DNA of 38,006 nt. Source: Chloroflexota bacterium. GTDB lineage: Bacteria > Chloroflexota > Anaerolineae > Aggregatilineales > J027. Every line of letters begins with the position of its first letter. Position 1 is the first letter of the stretch. This document shows positions 5,970 through 17,314 of the stretch, in pieces. Both the position numbers and the translations under genes were made by a program. The notes under the pieces are model-generated. The model did not search any database, was not told where the DNA came from, and saw nothing but the letters and a program-made list of their open reading frames with translations. The stretch covers positions 1 through 38,006 of the forward strand of contig RFGP01000011.1 in the NCBI GenBank assembly GCA_003697365.1, written 5' to 3'.

Positions 5970-6000
5970 CGGGTGATTGAATAATCAAGGAGTAAACGTC

Positions 6001-7272
6001 ATGTTGCTGCGCCGATTTTGGTGGTTGCTGTCATTGATGCTCATTTTTTCGTGGCCACCGTCCAGAATATCCATCGCACAAACAAGCAACAACATTCGTA
6101 TTTGGTGGCCAGAAGCATTATATGATGAACCATCACGCACCACAATCGATGCCTTATTTACAAACTATAATGCCGCAAGCAATACGCAAATTGAATCACG
6201 GATTTACCTTATGAACTTTCAAGGCATGAATGTCGTAAGTCAACTTCAGCTCGTCAATACAGTAGCACCAAGTGCCCTACCAGATATTGTGTTGATTCGT
6301 CGTGATGACATGAATACGATACTGCAACAAGCAAGCCTAACGAGTGCTAATGCAGACCCCACCGTCTATACACAACGGCCAGTAGAATTACAGCCCCTAA
6401 CAGTGTGGGATACAATTAGCATTACCAACGAGCTGTCTGCACTTTCGCCAACGCTCGTGAGCATGGGTGAGATTAATGGCATACGTTATGGACTTCCTTA
6501 TCTTATTGAAGTTCAGCATGTGCTCTATGAGCCCACAGCTTTCGATGAAGCCCCCCAAACCGCTCAGGACTTGCTCGCTGCAGGAGAACCGATCTTATTT
6601 ACAGCAAGACCAAATACAGGACAAGCCGTAAATGATTTCCTCCTCACTTTATATGTCAGTGCAGGAGGAACATTTATCAATTCAGAAGGCATTCCAATAT
6701 TAGACGAAGTACCTTTACGCCAAACGCTCATTTTTATTGAAGAAGCAACTGCCTCGCAAATCATTAGTGTCGATTTACTCAACTATCGGCAACCAGAAGA
6801 ATATCTAGACCTACTTGTTGAAGGCGAAAGGAATTTTGCTTTTGTCAATTCTTCTCTGTATTTAACACACGAAGAACTCACCCGTTTTACTGTTGAAGCA
6901 GTGCCCACTTTGGATACAGAACCTTCAGTGCTCCTTGATGGTTGGGTTTGGGTACTACTGACCGATGACCCAGAGCGGCAAGCTGCGGCCTTTCAATTTG
7001 TGCGTTGGATGTATGAGACCGATCAAATGGTTGATGTAGCGCTCGCAGTTCATAGTATCCCAGTACAAGAACGCGCGTTAAATGCAATGGACGATCCATA
7101 TTATGAAAGTATTCAGAATTTGATCGGTAATGCTATTTTGGTGCGAGGAAGGCGGAATCCAGCTGCCGTAGCACTTCAAAACGCTTTTGAAGCAGTGTTA
7201 AACGGCGCTTCATCAACTGAAGCTGCTACGACAGCGCTCAATAGCTTAAGTTCCTCAACTACCGATAGCTAA
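6001..7272 (+). CDS. Extracellular solute-binding protein, family 1 (sugar type)
   Basis: I take the ATG at 6001 as the start because AAGGAG at 5987-5992 lies 8 bases before it; an in-frame TTG at 5977 would include the RBS. The 423-residue product has a signal peptide (MLLRRFWWLLSLMLIFSW, cleavage probably after SIAQ) and the features of MalE/UgpB-like receptors: a mature start IRIWWPEALYDEPSRTTIDA, hinge-region segments such as LPDIVLIRRDDM and INGIRYGLPYLIEVQHVLY, and a C-terminal AAAFQFVRWMYE helix. It would bind a carbohydrate outside the membrane. No permease or ATPase is adjacent, so its transport partners are elsewhere or absent. The last codon overlaps the convergent htpG stop. Confidence 0.82.
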   Translation: MLLRRFWWLLSLMLIFSWPPSRISIAQTSNNIRIWWPEALYDEPSRTTIDALFTNYNAASNTQIESRIYLMNFQGMNVVSQLQLVNTVAPSALPDIVLIRRDDMNTILQQASLTSANADPTVYTQRPVELQPLTVWDTISITNELSALSPTLVSMGEINGIRYGLPYLIEVQHVLYEPTAFDEAPQTAQDLLAAGEPILFTARPNTGQAVNDFLLTLYVSAGGTFINSEGIPILDEVPLRQTLIFIEEATASQIISVDLLNYRQPEEYLDLLVEGERNFAFVNSSLYLTHEELTRFTVEAVPTLDTEPSVLLDGWVWVLLTDDPERQAAAFQFVRWMYETDQMVDVALAVHSIPVQERALNAMDDPYYESIQNLIGNAILVRGRRNPAAVALQNAFEAVLNGASSTEAATTALNSLSSSTTDS

Positions 7273-12320: not shown

Positions 12321-13918
12321 ATCGGCTTAATATACGGCTATTGGTATCTTTTAGCCTCATTTTGGTTATTTCATTGCTATTGATGTGGCTAGCATTGCTA
12401 CTTGTTCTACGTTCACAACCTCCAAACACTGAAGAAATATCATTAGCATTAGCTTCTATTGTCATCGATACTACACAGATTGCCACAGAGCGCGTCAACA
12501 CTGCACGCCAAGAAAACACTGAGACAATGACCGCGCGCCAACTCTTACGACTTTCTGAGAGCGTGTTATATGAAACCTTGCTTGAACAAGCAGAAAACAC
12601 CAATACTCGCCTAATGATTATTCGTGGCAATCAATGCATCTTGTGGGATAGCCAAGACAATAATGGAGATTATCCCTACTTGCTTGAAAATCCCATTACG
12701 GGTGATCTATTGTTAAGTACAAATCGCCGTTTATCGTCAAATATTATCACAGGCATTTTTATTGATAATAGCGGAGAAGAGTGGTTATACTCAGCCCTAC
12801 CAGTACCTAATGTTGAAAACCTACTCGCCTCTCTTGCACCTGAGCGCATTCGCAATACAGGCAGAACTTGTGGCAGCCTGCTAGAAGAACAACCTACAAT
12901 ATCCTACATCGCTGCTCTAGAACCCTATCCCCAACAATCGATCCGTAATGTGATAGATACGTATCGTGACGATGGATTGTTTCTGGCACTTATTCAAGCC
13001 GTTATTGTGGGACTGTTTTTCGCCCTTGTGGCATCTTATGCCATAGTCCGCTGGGTTTCAAATCCTCTCAACGATCTCGCCAACGCTGCAAAAGCTATTG
13101 CTGCTGGACGTTATGAGGAACGAGCACGCCTTTATGGCCCTGAAGAGGTACAAATCGTTGCCGAAAGTTTTAACCAAATGGCCGTTCAAGTACAAGCCTC
13201 TCGGCAAGCACAACAAGATTTTTTCGCCAATGTTTCACACGATCTGCGAACACCACTCACGAGTATTCAAGGTTTTGCCCAAGCTATTGCTGAAGGGATT
13301 ACAGATGGTGAAAGTGCACGTCGCTCAGCAGCAGTCATTCATTCAGAAGCCGAACGTATGAATCGTATGGTGAATGATTTATTGGAACTTGCAAAAATTC
13401 AAGCTGGGCGTATCTCAATGGCTAAACAACGTGTCGATATTACGCAATTACTTCAGTTTGTCGGTGAAAGTCTTTCGCTGAAAGCAAAACAAAAAGGCAT
13501 AACCTTAAATATAGAGATTAACAAACTTCCCCACATTTATGGTGATGGAGACCGCTTAGCACAAGTTTTCACTAACCTCGTAGACAACGCACTCAAACAT
13601 ACAGAATCAGGCGGCATAATATGGTTGCGCGCTCAAGTAGATGCTGATGGTGTATTAGTACAAGTTGAAGATACGGGGGAAGGAATACCGCCAGAAGATT
13701 TGCCACGCATTTTCGAGCGCTTTTACCAAGTTGATAAAAGCCGAGCTAAATTACAAGGTACAGGATTGGGGCTTGCTATCTCTCAAGAGATCATCCTAGC
13801 TCATCAAGGCAAGATATGGGTTGAAAGCACTTATGGTGAAGGCACGTGTTTTTCAGTTTGGTTGCCTGTTGATAAAAAAACACGTGCCACTTATACCACA
13901 AATCGCCCATCTTCCTAA
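12317..13918 (+). CDS. Membrane sensor histidine kinase (HAMP-HisKA-HATPase)
   Basis: A 533-residue two-TM kinase: TM1 near residues 8-30 (SLILVISLLLMWLALLLVL), an extracytoplasmic sensor region of about 185 residues, TM2 near 218-242 (LIQAVIVGLFFALVASYA), HAMP to about 293 (NPLNDLANAAKAIAAGRYEE), then HisKA with phospho-acceptor His308 in NVSHDLRTPLTSIQG, and HATPase_c with N box FTNLVDNALKH, G1 box DTGEGIPPEDLPRIFERFY and G2 GTGLGLAISQEI. All catalytic motifs are intact. No response regulator gene follows; the next gene is convergent. The only receiver in the window is the single-domain protein at 32756-33169. The input signal is unknown. Confidence 0.93.
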   Translation: MNRLNIRLLVSFSLILVISLLLMWLALLLVLRSQPPNTEEISLALASIVIDTTQIATERVNTARQENTETMTARQLLRLSESVLYETLLEQAENTNTRLMIIRGNQCILWDSQDNNGDYPYLLENPITGDLLLSTNRRLSSNIITGIFIDNSGEEWLYSALPVPNVENLLASLAPERIRNTGRTCGSLLEEQPTISYIAALEPYPQQSIRNVIDTYRDDGLFLALIQAVIVGLFFALVASYAIVRWVSNPLNDLANAAKAIAAGRYEERARLYGPEEVQIVAESFNQMAVQVQASRQAQQDFFANVSHDLRTPLTSIQGFAQAIAEGITDGESARRSAAVIHSEAERMNRMVNDLLELAKIQAGRISMAKQRVDITQLLQFVGESLSLKAKQKGITLNIEINKLPHIYGDGDRLAQVFTNLVDNALKHTESGGIIWLRAQVDADGVLVQVEDTGEGIPPEDLPRIFERFYQVDKSRAKLQGTGLGLAISQEIILAHQGKIWVESTYGEGTCFSVWLPVDKKTRATYTTNRPSS

Positions 13919-14136
13919 TACCATGCGCGTCTCTTTTTCAATACGACACCTCCACGCGAAGGTTCGGCATAATGCCGATTTGGGCGTACACGACCACGTG
14001 GATCAATATGAATTTCACCATTTTGCCGCAAATGCGCAAACTCCTCTGGGGAAATTTCGGGGGCGGGCTCTCCGCCTAATCGTTCAAAATGTTGTCGTTC
14101 ATCATTGTTAGGATCGTAAGGTGATCCTTTAATCAT
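13915..14136 (-). CDS. Small protein (73 aa) ending the E1/E2/JAB operon; function unknown
   Basis: The ATG at 14136 lies inside the end of the E1-like gene (8-base overlap) and has an AGGAGCAGGAAG-type RBS just upstream, so I prefer it to a longer frame opening at 14181. The product is short, polar and probably partly disordered, with N-terminal SPYDPNNDERQHFERLGG, a possible beta hairpin GEIHIDPRGRVRP and a tail SRGG at residues 60-63 followed by ten residues rich in Lys/Arg and ending AWY. It does not look like a ubiquitin fold (no clear ubiquitin-length strand-helix pattern), but the internal Arg-Gly-Gly near the C-terminus is noted because ubiquitin-like precursors are trimmed to Gly-Gly. 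Last gene of the conjugation operon; its stop overlaps the convergent kinase gene. Confidence 0.7.
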   Translation of the reverse strand: MIKGSPYDPNNDERQHFERLGGEPAPEISPEEFAHLRQNGEIHIDPRGRVRPNRHYAEPSRGGVVLKKRRAWY

Positions 14137-15043
14137 CTTCCTGCTCCTCTTCTTGTGCTGATGGTCGAACAGTATGCTCACTCTTTAGCAGTTCATCTAA
14201 TGATAAAGCATTCTCTAAACTTTTTAATTGTGTTCTCGTGCCACACACAAGGCAATCAGGATTACGCGGAATATTCACCCATTCTACACCGAAAGGGGGA
14301 ATATGATGTCCTTCAGCAATCTCCAACCATTGATTAGCAATAATCACCGTATTAGATGGTAACTCTCGATAAGCTGATGTCCCTTGCAAAAGAATATTAA
14401 GCGCCATGTTGGCTTGTGTGTTTGCTACTCTTACAACATCTAACCATAAAGCCGGCTCGGCTTTGAGTGTACCCTCTGGCCCAACTTGACCATAGTCTAA
14501 AGATTGATGATCACTCACATCGGAAAAAGAAATCTCTTCACGCAGGCTTTCTGCCCAACAAGCATAACATGGCCCCTGATTAGGAGAGATTATGACTACA
14601 TCCCCACCTTCACCGCGTTCGTAAACACCACCATAGATTGCTGTCAGATATTGAGCTAGACAAAATTCGTTTATCACATACTTTGTTGGCTCGTTATCTA
14701 CTCCTACAATAAGTAAATCTATGTTCAGCAAGGCTTTCAAATGTTCCTCTACTCTACCTTGATAAGCCAACACTTGTGCTGACGGGTTACGGTGTAGAAT
14801 TAAGTCTTTTATTGCTGCCACTTTAGGCTGATCAATATATCGTTTATCAGCGACATGCCGTATTATATTTTGAACAGAAAGTTTGTCAGGATCAATCAAG
14901 ACAAAGCGCGATACACCACACATGGCTAACGCTAACGCCACATATCCACCACCTGAGCCAAGACCGACAATGCCAACTTGTTTTTGTTGAAGCAAAGCAA
15001 GGTTTTCTGTACCTAATAACTGTTGTACTCGATCCCAACTCAT
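14129..15043 (-). CDS. E1-like (ThiF/MoeB/HesA family) adenylating enzyme
   Basis: The 304-residue protein shows the E1-superfamily Rossmann domain: GIVGLGSGGGYVALALAMCG (ATP loop, residues 24-43), LIDPDKLSVQNIIRH with Asp51, Asp53, Asn59 and Arg62 in the nucleotide-binding positions, and LIVGVDNEPTKY with Asp116. Two Cys pairs, GPCYACW (159/162) and PDCLVCG (264/267), match the structural zinc site of MoeB/ThiF-type enzymes. Family members adenylate the C-terminal Gly of a ubiquitin-like protein and may pass it on as a thioester. The tail is acidic (EEEQEDD). The start ATG overlaps the JAB gene stop as ATGA. With an E2-like gene in the same operon the role is probably modifier activation for protein conjugation rather than sulfur transfer, but no thiamine or molybdenum cofactor genes and no modifier gene are visible. 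Confidence 0.9.
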   Translation of the reverse strand: MSWDRVQQLLGTENLALLQQKQVGIVGLGSGGGYVALALAMCGVSRFVLIDPDKLSVQNIIRHVADKRYIDQPKVAAIKDLILHRNPSAQVLAYQGRVEEHLKALLNIDLLIVGVDNEPTKYVINEFCLAQYLTAIYGGVYERGEGGDVVIISPNQGPCYACWAESLREEISFSDVSDHQSLDYGQVGPEGTLKAEPALWLDVVRVANTQANMALNILLQGTSAYRELPSNTVIIANQWLEIAEGHHIPPFGVEWVNIPRNPDCLVCGTRTQLKSLENALSLDELLKSEHTVRPSAQEEEQEDD

Positions 15044-16059
15044 GATGAATAATACTCCTGAATCTTTTTCACCCCATCAATTAAATACATTTGATGGTGC
15101 CAATCAATGAGCGTTTGTACAGGTGATGAGGCGTTATAACACATTGCAAAAAAATCTTCGTCACCACTTGGACGTATTAAAGGCGCAATGCGCCACTGTG
15201 GTTGCCGATGAGGATAGGCAGTGGGTGTAAGCACTATGATAATGTAATGCGCGCCTGTTGGGTGTAATATCCATCCAATATCCAACGGTGGATGAGCGCG
15301 CGTCCCCCATGGAGTAATATCCACTACGCTAATATTGTGATATTCTAACATCAACAATTCTTTATCATAGCGTGCTGTATTCTCAAGATACCACGCAATG
15401 GGAGGCAAACGTGGTACATTTGCATCATCGATAACTTCAACGGCTAATGCTTCAAAATGATTTGGTCTATCAGAGAATATTCCCCAAAAATCAATACGCA
15501 AGTTTTGTTCTTGATAATGTATTGATAGAGTGTTATATGAAGGCACTTGTTCTGCTTGGCTGGCAAAATTCACAATAGGGAGTAACAAATAATCAAGATG
15601 ATTTTGGCGTAATAATCGCTGTGCTGTTTTCATATCACCTTGAGAAGGCCGTACTAGTCCCGGTTGTTTATGCCAATCACCAAGATATGCGAGTGGAAAA
15701 TCCCATTGGGTAGATATGATATTTTTTTCAGAAAAAGCCTGCTTCCTGCGCCGATAGTATTGCCAATTTGCGTACCACCATTCAAAAACTGCATGTTGCC
15801 AAGTATCGCCCAATTCCACTTGGCCCCAATTGCGCACCGCTTCAGTAGAGGGGATAGTTTCAAGAATAACCCACTGCTTCAGTAGCTTTGTGGGCTGTTG
15901 CATCGCTAAACCTACCAATGCCTCGCCCGTTTCAAGATGCGGATATTGCAATGCATGAACCGCTATTTTTTCTAAAATACGCGGTGTAATTTTGACGAGC
16001 GGCGACGCTATAGATGGTTTGAAAAATGGTGACGTGTAAGCAATCGAACGTTCAGACAT
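15040..16059 (-). CDS. JAB/JAMM-like protein with altered metal motif and C-terminal extra domain
   Basis: Start taken at the ATG at 16059, which overlaps the E2 stop as TAATG and has GGAAG a few bases upstream; an ATG at 16080 would add seven residues. The N-terminal ~165 residues fit a prokaryotic JAB/MPN metalloprotease: helix, then HLETGEALVGLA with Glu43, and YLGDWHKQPGLVRPSQGD with His130, Ser139 and Asp142. The usual H-x-H-x7-S-x2-D is here H-x-Q-x6-S-x2-D: the second His ligand is Gln132 and one residue is missing. Known JAB enzymes cut ubiquitin-like proteins from precursors or targets; this one may be inactive or differently liganded. Residues ~185-339 form a second region (YIIIVLTPTAYPHRQPQW) that recalls an RWD/E2-type fold. 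It lies between E2 and E1 genes in the operon. Confidence 0.72.
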   Translation of the reverse strand: MSERSIAYTSPFFKPSIASPLVKITPRILEKIAVHALQYPHLETGEALVGLAMQQPTKLLKQWVILETIPSTEAVRNWGQVELGDTWQHAVFEWWYANWQYYRRRKQAFSEKNIISTQWDFPLAYLGDWHKQPGLVRPSQGDMKTAQRLLRQNHLDYLLLPIVNFASQAEQVPSYNTLSIHYQEQNLRIDFWGIFSDRPNHFEALAVEVIDDANVPRLPPIAWYLENTARYDKELLMLEYHNISVVDITPWGTRAHPPLDIGWILHPTGAHYIIIVLTPTAYPHRQPQWRIAPLIRPSGDEDFFAMCYNASSPVQTLIDWHHQMYLIDGVKKIQEYYSS

Positions 16060-16535
16060 TAACGCTTCCAAGAAAACCATCGGTGTTTGGACTTGGCAAT
16101 GCTACCCTCTACACCGGGCCAAATTCCCGTTGCTCGCCACGTATAATAGGCATACAGCCACTCAATTGCCCACCCTGCAACTGTGACTGCGGTTGATGTG
16201 GAGGGATTCCAACCATATTGGCTGCCGTCTTTAGGATTAAATAGACATAATTGCCCATCTTCAAACTGATGTTTATTGCTATAAATCTTTGGGGCAACAA
16301 CATACGCTTCCGGTGGATGATTAGGGTAATATTTGGGGTAGATGATTTTTAACGTATGGTGCCGATAGCGCATCTGGCTTAAATTTAGCTCTATCGTACC
16401 AATCCAATATAAACGTTCTGGTGGTTCCCACTCTAAGCGGAAAGTATCACCAAATGTACGGCCCATATACTCAACTTCTAGTTGTAAGCGTGGCGATATG
16501 CTTGCGCGTGTCCCCCACCAGTATTTTTCACTCAT
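16059..16535 (-). CDS. E2-like ubiquitin-conjugating (UBC-fold) protein
   Basis: Start chosen at the ATG at 16535, with GGAG six bases upstream; an in-frame TTG at 16550 is less likely. The 158-residue product follows the bacterial E2 pattern: strands LYWIGTIELNL and HTLKIIYPKYYP, the NHPPEAYVVAP loop corresponding to the YPxxPP motif, then HQFEDGQLCLFNP with the putative catalytic Cys97 after the conserved His, and a C-terminal GWNPSTSTAVTVAGWAIEWL helix ending TGIWPG. That tail with Trp-Pro-Gly is typical of prokaryotic E2 relatives described with E1 and JAB genes. It would accept a modifier from the E1 as a thioester and pass it to a target. It sits 17 bases after the two-TM protein gene and overlaps the JAB start by one base. 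Target and modifier are unknown. Confidence 0.88.
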   Translation of the reverse strand: MSEKYWWGTRASISPRLQLEVEYMGRTFGDTFRLEWEPPERLYWIGTIELNLSQMRYRHHTLKIIYPKYYPNHPPEAYVVAPKIYSNKHQFEDGQLCLFNPKDGSQYGWNPSTSTAVTVAGWAIEWLYAYYTWRATGIWPGVEGSIAKSKHRWFSWKR

Positions 16536-16552
16536 TTGAAGCTCCAGCAATA

Positions 16553-17314
16553 TTATAGTTTTGCTCCGCTATTTTGTTGAGCTAATACTTCCTCTAGAGA
16601 GATAGGCATTGGCTCTTGAGAAACTTGTGTAAGTGGTACTTCACCATCTGCACTTGCATTAGTAGTTTTTTCTGTCGCATAAACCATAAACTGGTGTGAG
16701 GCGACCAAGCCACCATCCACCCAAACATTCAGCAACCATTGCCCACTTGAACCCAGCTTAGCATTCCCTTTTAATGGCAGACGATAATTGGGCACAATTG
16801 CATTTTCACCAAATCGGAGAAAGTGCTCAGTTTCATATACATACTGTAGTTGCCCTTGATGGTCAATCATCTCAAAACGTAATAAAATCGGAGAAGGTTC
16901 ACCTTTTTTATCACAGCCTAAAATCACATAAGGGCGTAGAGCATGGCCTGCTGTTGAAACGCTTTTCACACGCCGAACATATAAACCATTACGTTGATAT
17001 TCATCAAGCAACAAGCCAATATCTAACAGCGAATAAGCAATGCTAAAATCAGGGTGATGCATTGCTTGATTCTGTGCAATCTGAGCAGCTTGGCTCATGT
17101 TTTTAGGCATGGCAAGGCGCTCTCGACGTTGGCGATGATGAGCTGCTGAACGTAACAGACTCATCAGCACAGCTCCTCCCATTAAGAATGCCACTAATAC
17201 AGCAAGCGCTGATGCATCAGCAAGCGCAAAACCTATCATTGTGGCAATCATCAAAAACGCCCAAATTTGATTACCTCGTAAGCTCATCTGTTGCACTTTA
17301 TGATCAATAAACAT
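16553..17314 (-). CDS. Two-TM membrane protein, first gene of the E2/JAB/E1 operon; function unknown
   Basis: I place the start at the ATG at 17314 (MFIDHKVQQ), giving 253 residues; a longer frame opens at 17422 but runs through the TATAAT at 17342-17347 and has no RBS support. Residues ~17-55 hold two hydrophobic segments (IWAFLMIATMIGFALADA and LAVLVAFLMGGAVLMSLL) joined by a very short turn, so both ends should be cytoplasmic. A basic stretch (HHRQRRERL) and a helical linker lead to a beta-rich domain (residues ~100-220: GLYVRRVKSVSTAG, PILLRFEMIDHQGQLQYVY, QWLLNVWVDGGLVASHQFMV). The family is not recognised. Its place at the head of the overlapping operon suggests a membrane anchor or substrate for the conjugation system. 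Confidence 0.65.
   Translation of the reverse strand: MFIDHKVQQMSLRGNQIWAFLMIATMIGFALADASALAVLVAFLMGGAVLMSLLRSAAHHRQRRERLAMPKNMSQAAQIAQNQAMHHPDFSIAYSLLDIGLLLDEYQRNGLYVRRVKSVSTAGHALRPYVILGCDKKGEPSPILLRFEMIDHQGQLQYVYETEHFLRFGENAIVPNYRLPLKGNAKLGSSGQWLLNVWVDGGLVASHQFMVYATEKTTNASADGEVPLTQVSQEPMPISLEEVLAQQNSGAKL

Follow-up and report, generated by a model that had tools for sequence, protein, structure and literature searches.

Gene organization of the locus

The window analysed here is a stretch of 38,006 nucleotides (positions 1-38,006 of contig RFGP01000011.1, assembly GCA_003697365.1) from a Chloroflexota bacterium of the order Aggregatilineales, class Anaerolineae. Its minus strand carries an operon of five open reading frames (ORFs), which we interpret as a candidate ubiquitin-type conjugation system. 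In order, they encode a membrane protein with two transmembrane (TM) helices (16553-17314, 253 aa), an E2-like conjugating enzyme (16059-16535, 158 aa), a JAB/JAMM protein (15040-16059, 339 aa), an E1/ThiF-like adenylating enzyme (14129-15043, 304 aa) and a microprotein of 73 residues, p73 (13915-14136), whose co-occurrence with the E2 makes it a candidate modifier or donor peptide. A gap of 17 bases separates the membrane protein gene from the E2 gene, while the others overlap by 1 (E2/JAB), 4 (JAB/E1) and 8 bases (E1/p73). The original prediction, made from the letters of the sequence, had described four overlapping genes and an upstream gene for a two-TM protein, and all five ORFs lie in that place and with that spacing. 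The gene order recurs in relatives, where the E2 is mostly 62-68% identical, so that the operon is conserved far beyond chance.

A Pfam scan of the five proteins identified just one, the E1 (ThiF, 1.4e-30), while PADLOC models matched the E2 (6e-18), the JAB protein (2e-6) and the E1 (1.6e-26). Neither Pfam nor profile scans found a ubiquitin fold among the five; they include no match to a CD-NTase cyclase or effector, and no extra gene is conserved in the neighbourhoods of 20 relatives. The four proteins other than the E1 gave no match in a PHROGs scan. These profile identities bear out the proposal of an E2-JAB-E1 operon with a membrane partner and no recognisable ubiquitin fold.

The three enzymes

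The predicted active site of the E2 is Cys97 (codon at 16245-16247, minus strand) within DGQLCLF; DG[QE]LCL is present in 88/88 distinct sequences. The E2 family profile retrieves structures of human UBE2L3 (8.5e-6 to 2e-5) which, together with the PADLOC match and the invariant Cys, assigns this protein of 158 residues to the UBC superfamily, as had been proposed. The HPN motif is absent; eight residues before Cys97 stands H89-Q-F, of which only the His is invariant. The Cys is followed by a segment, GWNPS.STAVTV..WA, that appears similar, by our own comparison of the sequences, to W-S-P-A-L-T in classical E2s.

The E1 profile finds the solved structures of UBA5, ThiF and MoeB at about 1e-17 to 1e-18, and the invariant GxGSGG, D, R, K and two CxxC pairs assign the protein to the ThiF superfamily. 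The two CxxC pairs, already noticed in the original prediction, are the zinc motifs CYAC (14558-14569, minus strand) and CLVC (14243-14254, minus strand). In 82 sequences their four cysteines are the only invariant ones, the next best column having Cys in 84%, so that this E1, unlike the canonical ubiquitin E1, has no conserved catalytic thioester Cys. Near its C-terminus lies SLDELL (14186-14203, minus strand), with S281 and L282 invariant. In two genomes of one family (f4) a second ThiF/MoeB-like gene is found near the operon on the opposite strand (L041:3446-3907; L042, oriented, 5983-6444).

The JAB protein is modelled by AlphaFold2 (predicted local distance difference test, pLDDT, 87.5) with an Rpn11-like JAMM domain, and Foldseek matches it to the Caldiarchaeum Rpn11-ubiquitin complex (5.9e-8). 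E43, H130, S139 and D142 are invariant, while the complete E...HxH...S..D motif is absent from the window: WHKQP (15661-15675, minus strand) has Gln at residue 132 (about 15664-15666) in place of the second zinc His. The HxH form is kept in family f8, in one further genome (G038) and at most of the distant loci, hence the change to HxQ looks derived and lineage-specific, and the activity of the JAB protein is uncertain. A second domain (residues about 223-338) is predicted to have the order helix, four strands, two helices, as in UBC/RWD domains, and aligns in register with the E2 family profile (P = 0.006); a PDB sequence search with this domain gave no identification. From the predicted topology and the weak profile match, it may with moderate confidence be called UBC/RWD-like. 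The JAB-like identity given in the original prediction thus stands as regards the JAMM fold, and is to be amended as to the motif and the additional domain.

The membrane protein

The model of the membrane protein (AlphaFold2, pLDDT 84.5) consists of TM helices at residues 12-31 and 34-66, a beta-sandwich (95-212), a linker and a C-terminal helix. In Foldseek the solved folds nearest to the sandwich are the Wzt carbohydrate-binding domain and UNC119 (about 1e-5), and positive residues after the second TM helix suggest that it is cytosolic. The C-terminal helix is of the SL[DE][DE]LL type (SLEEVLAQ, 16577-16600, minus strand), in which S239, L240 and L244 do not vary among 23 sequences. Helices of the SL[DE][DE]L type are common to the C-termini of the E1 and the membrane protein, and to the N-terminus of the microproteins found at distant loci (see below); this could be a common docking helix.

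The microprotein p73

p73 has a variable, acidic and Pro-rich N-terminus, followed by RLGGEPAPDITPEEFARLQQSGQIHIDPRGRVR and then by a C-terminal G[VI]SLRKRRAWY, which in the window reads GVVLKKRRAWY (13918-13950, minus strand). It is apparently mostly disordered, and Pfam and PDB searches gave no significant match. RRAWY is present in 61/61 distinct C-termini, which were collected by this motif, and is missing from one truncated copy. Behind it stand 0-3 variable residues in 48 of the 61 sequences. The residue directly after RRAWY is Ala or Gly in 34 of the 61 (56%, against 16% in the N-terminal region of p73), and in 5, including that of the window, nothing follows.

Other ideas about a dedicated modifier were rejected. 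The RGG at residues 61-63 of p73 recalls the di-glycine of ubiquitin, but other p73s have DAG, DPG or EAG there. ThiS/MoaD proteins gave 2-4 matches in each of 14 genomes, including genomes that lack the system, and YukD is patchy in occurrence; no tested beta-grasp family therefore tracks the module. A divergent beta-grasp modifier beyond these families is possible.

These ThiS/MoaD proteins belong to another explanation, in which p73 is an adaptor or regulatory subunit that docks on the E1, the E2 or the UBC-like domain, and the modifier is of MoaD/ThiS type and shared with sulfur metabolism. The E1 is closest to ThiF, UBA5 and MoeB, proteins of the MoaD/ThiS family occur in every genome tested, and the [ST]L[DE][DE]L helices recur in the E1, the membrane protein and the distant microproteins as docking peptides would (compared with decoys over 10-14 columns). 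Such an arrangement is nevertheless unlikely, considering that MoaD/ThiS is equally present in non-carriers, that conservation of p73 stops only a few residues short of its C-terminus, as in a donor tail, and that p73 is similar to the tails of certain cyclases described below.

In many families a gene for a Nudix protein (CoA pyrophosphatase-like) lies downstream of p73 (ten loci). It follows p73 even where that gene is far from the E2, and is not beside p73 in the window. The C-terminal motif is also met in other proteins. An Rhs-core polymorphic-toxin-like protein (G053, L193:3937-5070; TIGR03696, 2.3e-15) has GRIRV...GASLRRRRAWY immediately in front of the C-terminal domain; in a similar case, G715 (L235:1934-2575), GNSLRQRRAWY stands ahead of a domain that by eye is nuclease-like. 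Weaker, borderline motifs occur in an ORF of 2,600 aa (G052, L236, minus strand) and in a phage scaffold-like protein (G706, L237:2701-3417; phrog_4866, 0.0025). Such occurrences suggest that the module, or something else in these cells, recognises the motif, and fit processing or tagging.

Distribution and inheritance

Searches covered first 60 relatives, then 131 genomes of the order, 298 of the class and 400 of the phylum. In the first set the E2 is present in 35/38 genomes of good quality; in the order it is found as a single copy in 114/131 genomes, and in 86/89 of the good ones. The three good genomes that lack it all belong to the early-branching family f3, and outside f3 it is present in 86/86. 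In the class sample (n=298) strong E2 matches are confined to the order; outside it there are five that are weak and sporadic. Two loci titled as Pleurocapsa minor and as a Bacteroidetes bacterium carry the operon of the order, and are probably mislabelled metagenome bins.

In an rpoB tree with other families of the class as outgroup, f3 branches first, and f6 (one genome, without the system) is next, unresolved beside the carrier families f1, f2, f4, f5 and f8; f7 is not reliably placed. A tree of E2, JAB and E1 recovers the same families with much the same internal order, its deepest fork being weakly supported. This congruence fits a single gain followed by vertical inheritance. Kinship with the scattered Bil-type systems, as first suggested, is not borne out, as the module is part of the core genome and vertically inherited in this order. 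It probably performs, for the same reason, a routine job.

Profiles of p73 and of the membrane protein each match 35/38 good genomes (61 searched), and neither is found in f3, f6 or f7. Flanking genes vary between families; what is conserved is the five-gene unit and, in many genomes, the Nudix gene beside p73. E2, JAB and E1 stay together in relatives, as the original prediction would have it, while the other two genes are sometimes relocated and almost always kept. The p73 gene of five genomes lies on a different contig or at a distance of 12-150 kb, and the membrane protein genes of family f2 are located elsewhere, yet none of these has been lost. Over the 131 genomes, E2 and p73 occur together in 110, E2 only in 4, p73 only in 3 (all <85% complete), and neither in 14; these counts disregard two f3 genomes in which the p73 motif was matched weakly (E = 0.02 and 0.04). 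As both proteins track the E2 even where unlinked, the five may be regarded as one module. A modifier that is divergent or encoded elsewhere, as had been considered, is not required: p73, which is co-inherited as an obligate partner, is the best candidate.

Obligate partnership would also be expected if p73 or the beta-sandwich membrane protein were a dedicated acceptor, the donor being some other, unrecognised protein. Both have lysines, and there is a precedent in Bacillus cereus, where the cyclase of a cyclic oligonucleotide-based antiphage signalling system (CBASS) is conjugated to a single dedicated membrane-associated acceptor, PspA (PMC11153139). No other gene is conserved beside the module in 20 relatives or beside the unlinked copies, except for the Nudix gene by p73, and the invariant C-terminus of p73 would be left unexplained; this solution seems improbable.

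Distant relatives and a link to CBASS

Beyond the order the JAB-UBC protein is rare (6 matches in the phylum sample, n=400, two of them inside the order), and the E2 is found in 4/41 genomes of one other family. Four loci from other Chloroflexota hold E2, JAB and E1 together and, in each, an ORF of roughly 50-80 residues lies directly upstream of the E2, ending for instance in LKPQRWFA. Where these loci extend far enough, RWD/UBC-like segments can be recognised by eye on TM, TPR or SPFH scaffolds (the last with Pfam Band_7, 2.5e-8). The distant loci, patchy in occurrence, resemble an ancestral or sister system linked to the membrane. A simple hidden Markov model search found no link between p73 and their microproteins; the link comes from profile-profile comparison with shuffled columns, in which 48 columns aligned and 0/400 shuffles were as good. 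On this basis we propose to group the four loci with the module as p73-type microprotein systems.

Most of the weak, sporadic E2s of the class adjoin a CD-NTase (in one case SMODS, 1.1e-20). On plasmids only distant E2s are found, and several of the regions examined hold CBASS genes with patatin or SAVED effectors, that is, CBASS type II-short. The tails of 12 such cyclases, from several phyla, mostly consist of a G.x.V..xG segment, a linker, and an aromatic-(aromatic/His)-Gly sequence with 1-7 residues after it. Against p73, 1/400 shuffles scored as well as these tails, and against the distant microproteins 0/400. Near their ends the cyclase tails, p73 and the distant microproteins share, as matched by eye, an aromatic-aromatic-small pattern. 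In an E2 tree the E2s of the order, of the microprotein-type loci and of CBASS-short stand apart from the E2 domains of Cap2 (100/97), one outgroup branch being very long. The short pro-tail of the CBASS-short cyclases may be cut before conjugation, though no JAB is seen beside most of them.

This relationship raises the question of whether the module itself serves in defence against phages, as Bil and CBASS do, and just happens to have become fixed in the order. PADLOC models do match the E1, E2 and JAB proteins, the distant relatives are as patchy as defence loci, and the E2 family is common to CBASS type II-short. Near-universal retention as a single copy, a congruent tree and the lack of a conserved cyclase or effector in 20 neighbourhoods all argue to the contrary, and make this improbable. 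A core immune function is possible.

Proposed function

The module is best explained as a core, membrane-associated ubiquitin-type conjugation system without a beta-grasp modifier, in which p73 would be the donor; on comparative sequence evidence we give this a probability of roughly 55%. The E1 would adenylate the C-terminus of p73. Transfer of the activated microprotein to the E2, at Cys97, might proceed directly from the adenylate, since the E1 has no conserved catalytic cysteine. An acceptor on the cytosolic side of the membrane would then receive the microprotein, conceivably by way of the beta-sandwich protein, and the JAMM-UBC protein might trim the variable tail after WY, remove the tag, or both. 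p73 would act like the C-terminal tail of a CBASS cyclase, in the form of a free-standing, disordered microprotein. There is a precedent for a donor without a ubiquitin fold in cGAS, which Cap2 conjugates through a C-terminal Gly/Ala (PMC10097602).

Several observations weigh against this. p73 has no C-terminal Gly and in the window genome ends in Tyr, while in the Cap2-cGAS system replacement of the Gly by Trp, Ser, Val or Arg abolished conjugation (PMC10097602). JAB residue 132 is Gln in 72 and His in 12 of 84 relatives, so that one zinc ligand is mostly missing, which weakens the case for trimming or removal. The E2 occurs without p73 in four genomes (G004, G702, G704, G738), one of them very incomplete. 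The similarity of p73 to the cyclase tails is modest and at profile level, the aromatic end having been matched by eye. Lastly, RRAWY is found inside a few Rhs/toxin-like proteins, which would fit a recognition tag too.

The wider reading is tentative, with odds somewhat short of even: an order-wide housekeeping pathway that places a disordered microprotein on membrane-associated targets, and has a common origin with the tails by which CBASS cyclases conjugate themselves. If p73 is indeed the tag, ubiquitin-type chemistry needs no ubiquitin fold, even outside CBASS, and cyclase tail and free microprotein are two forms of one donor module.

Comparison with known systems

The combination of ubiquitin-type enzymes with a microprotein tag seems to be undescribed: no account of such a system turned up in a literature search, whose scope did not extend to the bulk of subscription papers, among them the more recent Burroughs/Aravind catalogues and the principal publications on Bil. 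Pup is a small, disordered modifier with its conserved part at the C-terminus. p73 resembles it, by analogy, in being small, apparently disordered and conserved at the C-terminus. The GGQ/E end of Pup is not found in p73, which has RRAWY and a short variable tail, and the enzymes of the module are E1, E2 and JAMM rather than PafA/Dop, which were not searched for.

Bacterial E1-E2-JAB systems have been portrayed as sporadic and mobile, and as linked with phage defence. BilABCD likewise has E1, E2 and JAB in one operon, whereas the module lacks the beta-grasp protein BilA, has a small single-domain E1 without a catalytic Cys domain, and is not sporadic; its E2 also has no CEHH, a motif reported for BilB (PMC11354881). 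E2, JAB and E1 are neighbours in the operon types 6a-6e of Iyer, Burroughs and Aravind 2006 as well, and inactive E2/RWD-like domains occur in type 6e, but none of these types is described with a p73-like microprotein, a membrane beta-sandwich, a JAB-UBC fusion or order-wide conservation (PMC1779556). CBASS type II (Cap2, an E1-E2 fusion, and the JAB protein Cap3) is alike in having E1, E2 and JAB without ubiquitin, and C-terminal conjugation of a protein that is not beta-grasp (PMC10097602). In the module, by contrast, E1 and E2 are separate, the E1 conserves only its zinc cysteines, the JAB protein carries a UBC-like domain and in most cases HxQ, and a membrane protein and a microprotein take the place of the cyclase. 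CBASS type II-short (CD-NTase and E2 only, with a patatin or SAVED effector) has an E2 of the same family and a non-ubiquitin donor tail of similar profile. Compared with it, the module has no cyclase or effector, encodes the tail as a stand-alone gene, has a separate E1 and JAMM protein, and is core and vertically inherited rather than patchy.

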